50,948 nucleotides of DNA from the NCBI GenBank assembly GCA_003280495.1, contig QCET01000005.1, forward strand, positions 1 to 50,948, read 5' to 3'. A program made the position numbers and the translations under genes. This DNA comes from Pelagibacteraceae bacterium AG-359-E06 (GTDB taxonomy: Bacteria > Pseudomonadota > Alphaproteobacteria > Pelagibacterales > Pelagibacteraceae). This document shows positions 3,918-32,900 of this stretch, one piece after another. The notes beneath the pieces are model-generated. The model was not told the origin of the DNA. It searched no databases and saw only the letters and a list, made by a program, of their open reading frames with translations. Within the stretch, counting starts at the first letter, position 1. Each line of letters starts with the position of its first letter.

Positions 3918-4832
3918 CTACTCATTTGATATTTTATTTAAAGCATTATTTTTAAATAAATCAGCTTCTTTTATATATCTACGCACCATGTCTACAGATT
4001 TATGACCTGTCATTGCCATTATATTTCTTTCACTAGCTCCAAGCTCTGCTGTACTTGTTGCAAAGCCGGATCGCAAACTATGTCCAGCATATTTTTTATC
4101 ATCTAAGCCTGCGTTCGACGCGTGTTTTTTTATTATTAAAGCAACGTTTTTATCTGAAATAGGAAAAAGCAAGTCATTTTTGTTTATTTGCAGCCATTTT
4201 CTAAGATGATCAACTGGACAATATTCAAGACTTCTAAATGAGGGGATTGCTTTAATCATACCTTCTCCAGACTGATCTGATTTGGATTTTTTTACAAAAA
4301 TTTTTACACCCTCTTTGACAAATTCAATATCATCTTTAGTTATAGAAACCAGTTCTGACCTTCTAAATCCGCCTGAGAAACCTATTAAAATCAAAGATTT
4401 ATCTCTTAATTTTTTGAATTCACTTAACTCAGACTCATTAATTCCTTTAATTATTTCTTTTATATCGGCAAACATTAGTGGCTTTTTACTTTTTTGAAAA
4501 ACGCCTATTTGTCTTTTAATGCCTAATAAATTTTCAACGATTATTGGATGCTTAGTATCTAAATAATGACCTTTATACCTGTGCATGATGTTAATAGAAG
4601 CCAGACGTCTTTTTAATGTGCTGTATTTTGATTGTTTTGACAAATATGTTAGGTATAGAGAAACTATTTTAGGCTCAGTAGGCATGCTTTTCATAGAATG
4701 TTTAGAACAAAAAATAGCAAAGTCTTTAAAATCTGATTTGTATGCGCGAATTGTATTTTTTGCTTTCGACAGTTTTAAATTGTCTAAAGTTTTAATCTCT
4801 AAATTCTTAATATCAGATGTTAAATTATTCAT
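3918..4832 (-). CDS. tyrosine recombinase / phage-type integrase
   Basis: A 304-residue site-specific recombinase with an N-terminal SAM-like core-binding domain (LSKAKNTIRAYKSDFKDFAIF) and a complete catalytic domain: Arg I in GGFRRSEL, a KSKSDQ beta-hairpin lysine region, H-x-x-R in GHSLRSGFAT, the second histidine in TGHKSVDMVRRY, and the nucleophilic tyrosine in RRYIKEA. It stands alone between a glycan cluster and core genes, on the strand opposite its neighbours. XerC/XerD are alternatives, but the C-terminal motif fits mobile-element integrases better. It is the only recombinase in the window, although the tRNA-Pro elements about 19 kb away lack one. Confidence 0.88.
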   Translation of the reverse strand: MNNLTSDIKNLEIKTLDNLKLSKAKNTIRAYKSDFKDFAIFCSKHSMKSMPTEPKIVSLYLTYLSKQSKYSTLKRRLASINIMHRYKGHYLDTKHPIIVENLLGIKRQIGVFQKSKKPLMFADIKEIIKGINESELSEFKKLRDKSLILIGFSGGFRRSELVSITKDDIEFVKEGVKIFVKKSKSDQSGEGMIKAIPSFRSLEYCPVDHLRKWLQINKNDLLFPISDKNVALIIKKHASNAGLDDKKYAGHSLRSGFATSTAELGASERNIMAMTGHKSVDMVRRYIKEADLFKNNALNKISNE

Positions 4833-30414: not shown

Positions 30415-30622
30415 AAAAGATTCATAAAATTTATATGTAATCTTAATAATATTTATTTAAATCGCTGTCATATGAAATTTTCAAACTTTAGATTTGTCCC
30501 CTGGGATCAAGATGAGCTTGACACAAGGCCAAGGCCTCTTGAGCCAGCAGCTTGATTTCATATAAGTTAGGCTGACATGTGTTTTACTCCCTGTTAGAAA
30601 ATATTTTGTCAGCCTAACCAAA
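30408..30622 (-). repeat. 215-bp repeat R2, leader of the lyase gene, with 12-bp inverted repeat
   Basis: Matches R1 (26062-26276) with only scattered differences and begins at the lyase start codon. It includes a perfect inverted repeat, GTTAGGCTGACA (30566) with TGTCAGCCTAAC (30607-30618), around a 29-base loop, which should fold strongly in RNA or single-stranded DNA. It may be a structured 5' leader, a promoter region or a terminal repeat of the nested unit. Confidence 0.7.
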
Positions 30623-30630
30623 TACAAACT

Positions 30631-30650
30631 CAATTCTAGAGTCTAAAAAA
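30631..30650. repeat. 20-bp direct repeat, right copy
   Basis: Identical to 26042-26061. It stands just outside R2, as the left copy stands just outside R1, so both frame the unit 26062-30630. The GC-rich block begins immediately after it. Confidence 0.7.
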
Positions 30651-30870
30651 TCGCGATTAGAGTCGTCCTGGACGGACTCCACAAGGCCCGCTATGTGTTG
30701 CGCTAGGTCGCGCAACGGCTCGCTAGGCCGCTCGCCGCGGGCGGTGTTTAATGGACTCTATAAGCCCGTGTACGCGTTGCGATCTTGCCAGGGGTCTTTG
30801 GGTCCCCGTAGAGGTCCCATGGACTCTTAAACGTTTCTGAGTCCGTTTAATGCATGTCCTGGTGGAGACA
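30651..30870. ncRNA. GC-rich, hairpin-dense block of unknown nature
   Basis: About 220 bases that are GC-rich in an otherwise AT-rich genome and contain no convincing gene. GTTGCGC-(6)-GCGCAAC is a perfect stem; GAGTCGTCC with GGACGGACTC, CGCC-GCG-GGCG, and GGACTC-(12)-GAGTCC are others. GGACTC occurs three times, and GGACTCCACAAGGCCCG is echoed by GGACTCTATAAGCCCG, so the block is partly built of diverged repeats. It could be a structured RNA, a recombination or replication site, or foreign DNA. RNA is one option only; strand is unknown. Confidence 0.3.
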
Positions 30871-30917
30871 TAAGAGGTATCATATACATGTATATATATT
30901 GGACTTTTGCAGATAGT

Positions 30918-31257: not shown

Positions 31258-31833
31258 ATGAAAAAGCTTTTAACAATCATGGTTCTGGGTTTGTTATCGA
31301 GCGGGAATGCTTACGCAGAAAACAAATGGAAATTTACTAGTAACGATAACGCTGTAAGAGCTGAAATTAATGGTGAAAAAAGTTTTGGTGATAAGTTTAT
31401 CTATGCGCTTCTCAAAGAAAAAAATAAATGCGAAAAAATGATTATTTTATTTTCAATTATAAGTAACGGAAAACATGATTTAAATAAAATATTAGGTCAA
31501 AAGATACCTATAAAAATAAATGGAATGGGTCCTCTAAGTGCATTGATTGTTAGAGTGACATCAGCATTCGAAAATGTAGAAAATGCTCCGTTAGACTTAA
31601 CACAAGAACAAATTGACAGAGCAAAAAAAACTCAAATAGTGATAATCCAAATAGGCGGGGAAAGATCAATTGATGGATATAATTTTAAAAGAGTTGCTAT
31701 GAAGACCACTATTGATTTAGTTAAAGTTGATGAATTCGATCCATCTGAATATTTTCTTAATTTATCTAATACCTGGGACTTGACAAAAAATCGTTCTGCT
31801 ATTGATGTTGGATTAGGAATGTGTAAATTATAA
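31258..31833 (+). CDS. secreted hypothetical protein with the shared signal-peptide cassette
   Basis: A 191-residue exported protein with signal peptide MKKLLTIMVLGLLSSGNAYA and probable cleavage after AYA. The mature part has a beta-rich look (WKFTSNDNAVRAEINGEKSF, ending IDVGLGMCKL) and two cysteines, but no recognised domain. The DNA of the first dozen codons is nearly identical to that at 32191, while the rest is unrelated, so the signal sequence behaves like a swappable cassette. It ends exactly where a decayed cassette copy begins. Confidence 0.6.
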   Translation: MKKLLTIMVLGLLSSGNAYAENKWKFTSNDNAVRAEINGEKSFGDKFIYALLKEKNKCEKMIILFSIISNGKHDLNKILGQKIPIKINGMGPLSALIVRVTSAFENVENAPLDLTQEQIDRAKKTQIVIIQIGGERSIDGYNFKRVAMKTTIDLVKVDEFDPSEYFLNLSNTWDLTKNRSAIDVGLGMCKL

Positions 31834-31858
31834 AAAACTTTAACAATACTGGTATTGA
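31833..31858 (+). repeat. decayed copy of the signal-peptide cassette
   Basis: AAAAACTTTAACAATACTGG resembles the cassette AAAAAGCTTTTAACAATCATGG at 31261 but has lost the start codon and quickly runs into a stop (KTLTILVLI then TAA). It begins at the stop codon of the preceding gene. Confidence 0.5.
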
Positions 31859-31866
31859 TTTAAACT

Positions 31867-32190
31867 ATGTTTAAATGGTTAAGAGATAAAATAAATACAG
31901 GTTCAGAAAATGAGTATAAGAATGGCCTTGCAAGAAATGCAAACTTCCTTAATTTCCTAATGAACGAATTGCCTACTAGGCCAGAATTTAATCATTTAAA
32001 TCATGCCCGAATTTTAGGTGATATTGATATCACGAAATTGTTAAAGGAAAATAATGAACTTCTAAAATTAGGATATAGCAAAGAAAATATGGCACGCCTA
32101 CTTGATTTAGATATGAATTGTAGAAGATGTTGGGGAAACGTTTTGAGTCAAAGTGATTTAAAATATAATAAAACATTTGATCCTAAATAA
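31867..32190 (+). CDS. hypothetical soluble protein
   Basis: A 107-residue protein without a signal peptide: MFKWLRDKINTGSENEYKNG, FLMNELPTRPEFNHLNHARI, and a C-terminal LLDLDMNCRRCWGNVLSQS with a CxxC. The CRRC motif is single, so a zinc site is not assured. Its TAA directly abuts the ATG of the next secreted-protein gene, suggesting coupled translation or an insertion boundary. No family is recognised. Confidence 0.55.
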   Translation: MFKWLRDKINTGSENEYKNGLARNANFLNFLMNELPTRPEFNHLNHARILGDIDITKLLKENNELLKLGYSKENMARLLDLDMNCRRCWGNVLSQSDLKYNKTFDPK

Positions 32191-32817
32191 ATGAAAAAGC
32201 TTTTAGGGATCATGGTTCTGGGCTTGTTTGTTCTTGAATTAAATGTTGGAGCGAGAGAAGTATTAGAAAGCAAAAAATTAGATGCTTGGAAAGTTGATGG
32301 TAAATTTATCATTCCAGAGTGTTTGGTGTATGAATGGTATTCTGGAGATAATTATGAAGAATTTTATGAAAAATATTTTAATAAAAAAGGAGATCATGCA
32401 GATCCAAAATTTAAAAATTTTATAAAAAATATAGGTTTGTTTTTAAATAAGGAGGTTCCTTTAAAAAACACGATTAAAACAGGTTGGAGTTCTCCAAATG
32501 AGGAAATATCTTTAACCAAAAATGTATCTGATTGTTTAAGCAAAAATCCTGAAACATATGTCACTGGTCCTTTTATAGGTACATACGATGGCTATAAAGT
32601 TATAAAAACAATAGATATTCAGAGAGGTTTAAAATTAGCTCCAAATATAAGCCAAAAATTTTTATCAATTAAACTTATTGAGCGGATCAATAGACCTGGG
32701 AGAATGGGTTCGAGATATCATTATAATATTTATGGAATAATTAATTTAAATGGCGAAAAGGTAATTGTACCTTTAAAAAATGAGCAAAATGATAAGTCTG
32801 TTAGAAAAAAATTTTAA
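32191..32817 (+). CDS. secreted hypothetical protein with the shared signal-peptide cassette
   Basis: A 208-residue exported protein. The signal MKKLLGIMVLGLFVLELNVG is nearly identical at the DNA level to that at 31258, but the mature part is different (ARE-VLESKKLDAWKVDGKFII, SRYHYNIYGIINLNGEKVIV). Cysteines occur in IPECLVYEW and SDCLSKNP. No domain is recognised. Like its neighbour, it ends where a decayed cassette copy starts. It is probably periplasmic. Confidence 0.6.
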   Translation: MKKLLGIMVLGLFVLELNVGAREVLESKKLDAWKVDGKFIIPECLVYEWYSGDNYEEFYEKYFNKKGDHADPKFKNFIKNIGLFLNKEVPLKNTIKTGWSSPNEEISLTKNVSDCLSKNPETYVTGPFIGTYDGYKVIKTIDIQRGLKLAPNISQKFLSIKLIERINRPGRMGSRYHYNIYGIINLNGEKVIVPLKNEQNDKSVRKKF

Positions 32818-32900
32818 CAATCCTGGTTGTGGGTTTGTTGTTTACAAACAATCTGCCTGCAGAAAATTTAGGTATAGACAAAACAGTTAATGATTATTGA
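32805..32900 (+). pseudogene. start-less remnant of a signal-peptide-cassette gene
   Basis: A 31-codon frame reads KKILTILVVGLLFTNNLPAE and ends NDY. It is a good signal peptide in the pattern of the two intact cassettes but is preceded by a TAG and has no start codon. It overlaps the end of the 208-residue gene in another frame and the start of the next membrane-protein gene. Confidence 0.5.

Follow-up and report, generated by a model that had tools for sequence, protein, structure and literature searches.

A dispersed signal peptide-encoding DNA cassette that probably anchors gene exchange in the variable islands of SAR11

How does one stretch of leader DNA come to stand in front of unrelated genes? 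The question is raised by a locus in the window (the whole stretch of DNA analyzed here, 50,948 nucleotides of contig QCET01000005.1 from Pelagibacteraceae bacterium AG-359-E06), in which two genes begin almost identically and then have nothing recognizable in common. SAR11 bacteria are the commonest bacteria of the ocean and dominate its surface. Their genomes are very small, yet retain hypervariable regions where unknown genes for surface and secreted proteins are plentiful. Dozens of unrelated exported SAR11 proteins start with nearly one DNA stretch of approximately 40 letters; no earlier report of this cassette was found in the open-licence literature.

In the window, the first intact gene (31258..31833, plus strand; an open reading frame of 191 aa) combines a unique mature part with a leader cassette at 31258..31295 (plus strand), identified as a direct repeat, by a codon-pattern match with 0 mismatches and by a PWM score of 54. 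Homology of this copy wanes toward 31320, and its cleavage-site region reads NAYAE. The second intact gene (32191..32817, plus strand; an open reading frame of 208 aa) likewise joins a unique mature part to a cassette (32191..32228, plus strand; direct repeat, codon-pattern match, PWM score 55). Over the first 36 bases the two genes agree at 32 positions; beyond this start they are dissimilar (the mature DNA scores within the range of shuffles, and the protein comparison gives an E-value of 1.6), as the original prediction of near-identical starts and unrelated mature parts had it. For the mature part of the first gene, remote relatives exist in another genus (G018; 30-34% identity) with quite different leaders; for that of the second, matches among 294 family genomes are marginal at most.

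A third, orphan copy is located at 32802..32864 on the plus strand (84-89% identity to the first copy, PWM score 21, recognized in the sequence). Its ATG has become TAG, but the leader is still open as far as a signal-peptidase-like site, after which the frame ends in a short stub with a stop. This copy contains the stop codon of the 32191 gene, in agreement with the predicted decayed copy near 32805 that overlaps the 3' end of the preceding gene. Four copies had been proposed, of which those at 31258, 32191 and 32802 stand. The fourth, a possible but weak decayed fragment at the stop codon of the first gene (31832..31854, plus strand; direct repeat family D2), does not: its 23-nt gapped match has a score of 14, within the 13-17 reached by random windows matched in dinucleotide content, so that the sequence by itself does not establish the copy and only its position at a gene end favors it. 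All window copies are in direct orientation. An open reading frame of 107 aa without a leader (31867..32190, plus strand; from the ORF list and the sequence), which has no match in Pfam and directly abuts the second cassette (TAA/ATG), lies between both intact genes, so the window locus is not a pure array. Within its own draft genome (842 kb, approximately 80% complete) the repeat is confined to this locus; in the window, a codon-degenerate pattern matches two sites, those of both intact genes, against 0 expected. A Rfam search at the locus returned no RNA family, and a known RNA element was rejected on this ground. Between a minus-strand gene and the cassette locus, a G+C-rich non-coding block with repeated GAGTC/GACTC motifs (30481-30900) is present, also without a Rfam match. 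Neither a DNA search nor the flanking 910-aa protein identified a matching locus in the genus of the window, and hence no empty site there either; with no relative found to carry the locus, exchange in the window cannot be dated.

Across Pelagibacteraceae, the cassette DNA ATGAAAAARCTTTTAGGGATC[GTA]TGGTTCTGGGTTTGTT is dispersed, occurring at up to 16 places per genome. The codon-degenerate pattern, in which every synonym is allowed at the informative codons, matches 151 of 297 family genomes with at most 3 mismatches; the reversed control pattern matches none of the 297. Among the 61 zero-mismatch matches listed, the glycine codon is GGG in 43 of 45, the isoleucine codon ATC in 60 of 61 and the tenth codon CTG in 52 of 61; as a part of each amino acid's use in the surrounding genes, these codons account for 6.4, 9.1 and 2.0%, respectively. 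Had one peptide arisen several times independently, such codons would not result; judged from codon choice in a codon-degenerate search, the repeat is one of DNA sequence and not of the peptide only. An independent origin of the leaders had been named as the counter-case to be read from silent sites; these instead follow one common DNA sequence built from the rarest codons, and the leaders are thus not convergent.

In an alignment of 193 unique copies, whose identity is partly ascertained as the loci were gathered by DNA pattern, information upstream of the ATG is approximately 0. From the A of the ATG on, conservation is immediate (first codon 97-99%), remains strong to about +45, rises more weakly at the cleavage site near +60-62, and is absent past it. 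The search pattern began at base 7 and excluded the ATG, so the search itself did not produce the sharp left edge. In 52 of 72 cases (130 of 420 for other genes) a cassette gene abuts or overlaps the gene before it, and a second cassette copy follows in 34 of 108 (73 of 822 for other open reading frames). A model in which all cassette genes lie between two copies and are excised as units was rejected, since only 34 of 108 are placed in this way. Arrays outside the window also run in one direction.

A scan of genome contigs yielded at least 118 stretches, nearly all labelled Pelagibacteraceae. One contig labelled Methylococcales (L130, JAGLDH010000181.1) contains an orphan cassette within DNA that matches a Pelagibacteraceae contig (L077) at 98-99% identity, and is probably misbinned. 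Most genomes used are single-cell or metagenome assemblies. Against an artefact of single-cell amplification stand junctions that recur in independent genomes (f0-f15 twice, f0-f34 twice, f3-f17 three times), and exact cassette copies in single-contig genomes. Carriage by phages found no support in the viral contig collection scanned, in which two pattern scans and one protein scan gave no match.

Of 198 copies, 137 lead an open frame that is at least 60 aa long or leaves the edge of the locus, and 60 are orphans with a stop within 40 codons, in which the left edge is still sharp and the right edge ragged. The 135 intact proteins (80 to 734 aa) fall into at least 79 mature families, including 54 singletons (blastp, E 1e-3). 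Few of these families match Pfam; the matches comprise an autotransporter, a polysaccharide lyase, alpha/beta hydrolases, an M16 peptidase, a trypsin-like protease, MORN repeats and AlgH. The leaders have a basic start, the hydrophobic core MKKLLGIVVLGLL and AxA-like or lipobox ends, 13 of those on intact proteins being of the lipoprotein/lipobox type. From these features the cassette is predicted to encode a Sec-type signal peptide and may serve as an export tag. A defence-system library gave few, scattered matches to the 79 mature families, which leaves a defence role for the whole mature set unsupported.

Evidence for exchange comes from DNA on either side of cassette starts, with other gene starts of these loci for comparison. 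Where a pair of cassette sites matched upstream, up to the ATG, the downstream DNA was unrelated in 33 of 37 pairs (other genes: 76 of 494); when they matched downstream, the upstream DNA was unrelated in 36 of 46 (other genes: 17 of 361). These pairs are not independent of one another and represent 8 and 6 independent groups, respectively, so Fisher values overstate the certainty, but the direction is clear. The gene for a 279-aa hydrolase (f0), for instance, has its last 400 bases 97-100% identical in several species-level genomes, and directly behind it are different cassette genes or an orphan. Behind a DUF3764 gene (f3), several different cassette genes are found at the same TAA/ATG, and in one case each a pilin gene or neither.

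Crossovers are also located inside the cassette, which exists in few haplotypes. Behind f0, the cassette of f17 carries the variable codons TTT-GGG-GTA-CTG, and behind f3 it carries CTT-GCG-GTG-CTA. Other genes and an orphan behind f0 share the first haplotype, which indicates that its 5' part belongs to the upstream site. At the f0 sites, one haplotype switch lies before base 9, one between bases 11 and 16, and others after base 29. Across all groups, agreement between upstream-matched pairs drops toward the 3' end, to 0.52 at bases 39-45 (0.42 for unrelated pairs), and is 0.98 over the same bases for downstream-matched pairs. Such scattered breakpoints fit homologous recombination at short identity better than a site-specific enzyme.

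Leaders themselves are replaced. Equal divergence of signal and mature regions, raised with the original prediction as evidence to the contrary, was not observed; the divergence is very unequal. On comparison before and after the cleavage site, the mature DNA of two loci (L068 and L096) is 92% identical over 300 bases and the leaders are unalike, one of them being the cassette; in two further pairs (L132/L147 and L076/L147) the mature DNA is 78-80% identical with leaders likewise unalike. For the AlgH-like protein, we rejected the idea of a cytosolic protein newly exported, as its SAR11 relatives already carry other leaders; this case shows leader replacement, not new export. SAR11 AlgH/YqgE-like proteins (PF02622; L092:1236-1868, L216, L217, L218) have signal peptides, with unrelated leaders in different genera, and the more distant relatives L219 and L220 are without one. 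The prediction that an export cassette is joined to variable downstream DNA thus gains support as a re-pairing of leaders, neighbours and mature regions, since in relatives the same upstream DNA and cassette are followed by many unrelated genes, one mature gene is found behind differing upstream DNA, and haplotypes break within the cassette.

Together, these data are best read, with a probability of roughly three in four, as a dispersed leader whose short homology anchors the exchange of genes in the variable islands of SAR11. The element is a dispersed cassette of approximately 38-60 bp that starts exactly at the start codon and is predicted to encode a Sec-type signal peptide; as protein it would be an export tag, and as DNA the near-identical stretch at which exchange between SAR11 strains resolves. 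A crossover inside the cassette would leave the upstream gene and the cassette's 5' part in place at the site and attach to them the 3' part and mature gene of the incoming DNA, so that secreted-protein genes are swapped at the site and an older leader can be replaced. Orphans would be copies whose downstream gene was lost, or severed at ragged points. The exchange probably depends on homologous recombination of the RecA type, some of it one-sided and closed by an illegitimate second junction; a second copy that could account for the 3' junction lies behind a minority of cassette genes only (the 34 of 108 above), and no recombination gene was linked to cassette exchange. Repeated exchange may also keep the cassette uniform, and the window locus itself was presumably formed in this way.

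A close parallel to such an anchor is found in the vmp genes of relapsing-fever Borrelia and in Anaplasma, where in anchored gene conversion a short 5' homology guides replacement of the rest of a surface-protein gene, a common stretch of 20 nt being enough in one vmp case (PMC4534519). This conversion is confined to a single genome, in which the silent and the expressed copies belong to one family (PMC4534519). The SAR11 cassette similarly offers a short 5' homology as anchor, but the families that it precedes are unrelated and spread over many loci, and a silent archive was not seen.

Among the alternatives, the one that survives best, although we consider it unlikely, is that whole small genes are the cargo of mini-islands targeted to tRNA or tmRNA genes, so that the islands move and the leader is only common cargo. 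Many cassette loci indeed adjoin genes for tRNA-Thr, tRNA-Leu, tRNA-Met or tmRNA and have partial tRNA copies and short tandem repeats close by; partial tRNA-Thr and tmRNA-linked repeats also adjoin gene starts. The loci contain 115 tRNAs where approximately 22 are expected, an excess that counts a few hot spots repeatedly. Movement of islands, however, neither creates breaks inside the leader nor re-pairs a mature gene with different upstream haplotypes, and no tRNA is near the window copies, the nearest being more than 13 kb away; with no related locus found in the genus either, the history of the window is deduced from its relatives. Many related loci do resemble the tRNA-associated additive islands, or tycheposons, in lying beside tRNA or tmRNA genes with partial tRNA repeats, in contrast to the window locus. 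For these elements of streamlined aquatic bacteria, island insertion has been described and, in the part of that source available, a signal-peptide sequence as exchange point is not mentioned (PMC10872708). Island movement and cassette exchange probably both operate.

Less probable still is a cassette that functions as a regulatory element, such as a small-RNA target or a translation control, with exchange occurring nearby for unrelated reasons. Retention of rare codons in nearly all copies and conservation that begins exactly at the start codon would suit such a function, but the approximately 60 of 198 copies without a gene behind them do not, and the haplotype breaks within the element make exchange real there even if regulation takes place too.

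We regard as very improbable a site-specific recombination or inversion system that uses the cassette as its target, as in mycoplasma vsa/vsp/vpma or shufflons, despite the constant leader, variable body and junctions at the leader. In the mycoplasma systems, a near-constant 5' coding region that includes the signal peptide is joined to different mature proteins at the gene start; the recombination site lies in the 5' untranslated region (-1 to -72 in vpma), a tyrosine recombinase is encoded nearby, and inversion at one locus switches expression (PMC2268961). The SAR11 cassettes share the constant leader and variable mature part (79 families). In contrast to vsa/vsp/vpma, they have no conserved sequence upstream of the start codon (193 copies) and no recombinase adjoins the window locus; the copies are not inverted but run in one direction in the window and in other arrays, and the crossovers are ragged, and fall in at least three different cassette intervals; exchange takes place between strains and genera. 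The sole PF00589 tyrosine recombinase match in the approximately 80% complete draft genome (window 3963-4469, minus strand) is on the same contig, 27 kb from the cassettes. Integron gene cassettes are comparable in that single, tightly packed genes are exchanged at a repeated DNA element, but the SAR11 repeat is a 5' coding leader rather than a 3' attC hairpin and breaks in several leader intervals instead of at one fixed attC base; no integron integrase was seen in the incomplete genome, where the one candidate is this generic PF00589 protein, and an earlier SAR11 study found no attC sites (PMC2217521).

That a single secreted gene was duplicated into an ordinary paralogous family, its mature parts diverging past recognition while export selection kept the leader, is scarcely credible: all copies do encode the same kind of leader and some neighbours among them are related (e.g., a pair of similar lipoproteins at L157), but selection on the peptide does not explain leader silent sites nearly frozen on rare codons, the mature regions (79 families) are not homologous and include unrelated folds (autotransporter, M16 peptidase, trypsin-like, AlgH, polysaccharide lyase, alpha/beta hydrolase), and near-identical mature genes are found with other leaders.

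If the leader does act as a homology anchor, the cassette would be a natural case in which a protein-targeting signal is a recombination anchor as well. As a short coding repeat placed at the exchange point, it would provide a concrete and searchable signature for the turnover of SAR11 variable genes, predict where new exported proteins appear, and tie many unannotated proteins to one export route. More tentatively, and with a chance somewhat short of even, the cassette might be a SAR11 "signal-peptide exon", kept near-identical across genera by recombining, behind which any open reading frame that lands becomes exported. This would amount to a self-sustaining, recombinase-free engine that diversifies the secretome of streamlined genomes.

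Several minor observations concern the related loci. Just upstream of gene starts, very small variable elements of 1-3 genes are bounded by a partial 3' copy of tRNA-Thr(TGT) on one side and by the intact tRNA on the other (L064, L084, L107, L112, L134, L137, L146 and L171-L175), and similar small blocks are present at tmRNA (L065, L121 and L056); these blocks look like integrase-targeted mini-islands without an integrase of their own. Tandem direct repeats of approximately 11 bp, the sequence of which differs by locus (e.g., CTGTCCACAAT, CTGTCCGCACT and ATGTCCGCACT), are found near tRNA genes, next to the tRNA-linked ends, and at array ends (L043, L048, L058, L096, L129, L137, L149 and L175), and are possible arm sites of different recombinases. 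Finally, at L178, L128, L084 and L173, Type IV prepilin genes are found at sites otherwise used by cassette genes; their 5' DNA, around TTCACACTTATAGAACTTCTAGTCGT, also looks conserved and is possibly a second leader cassette.
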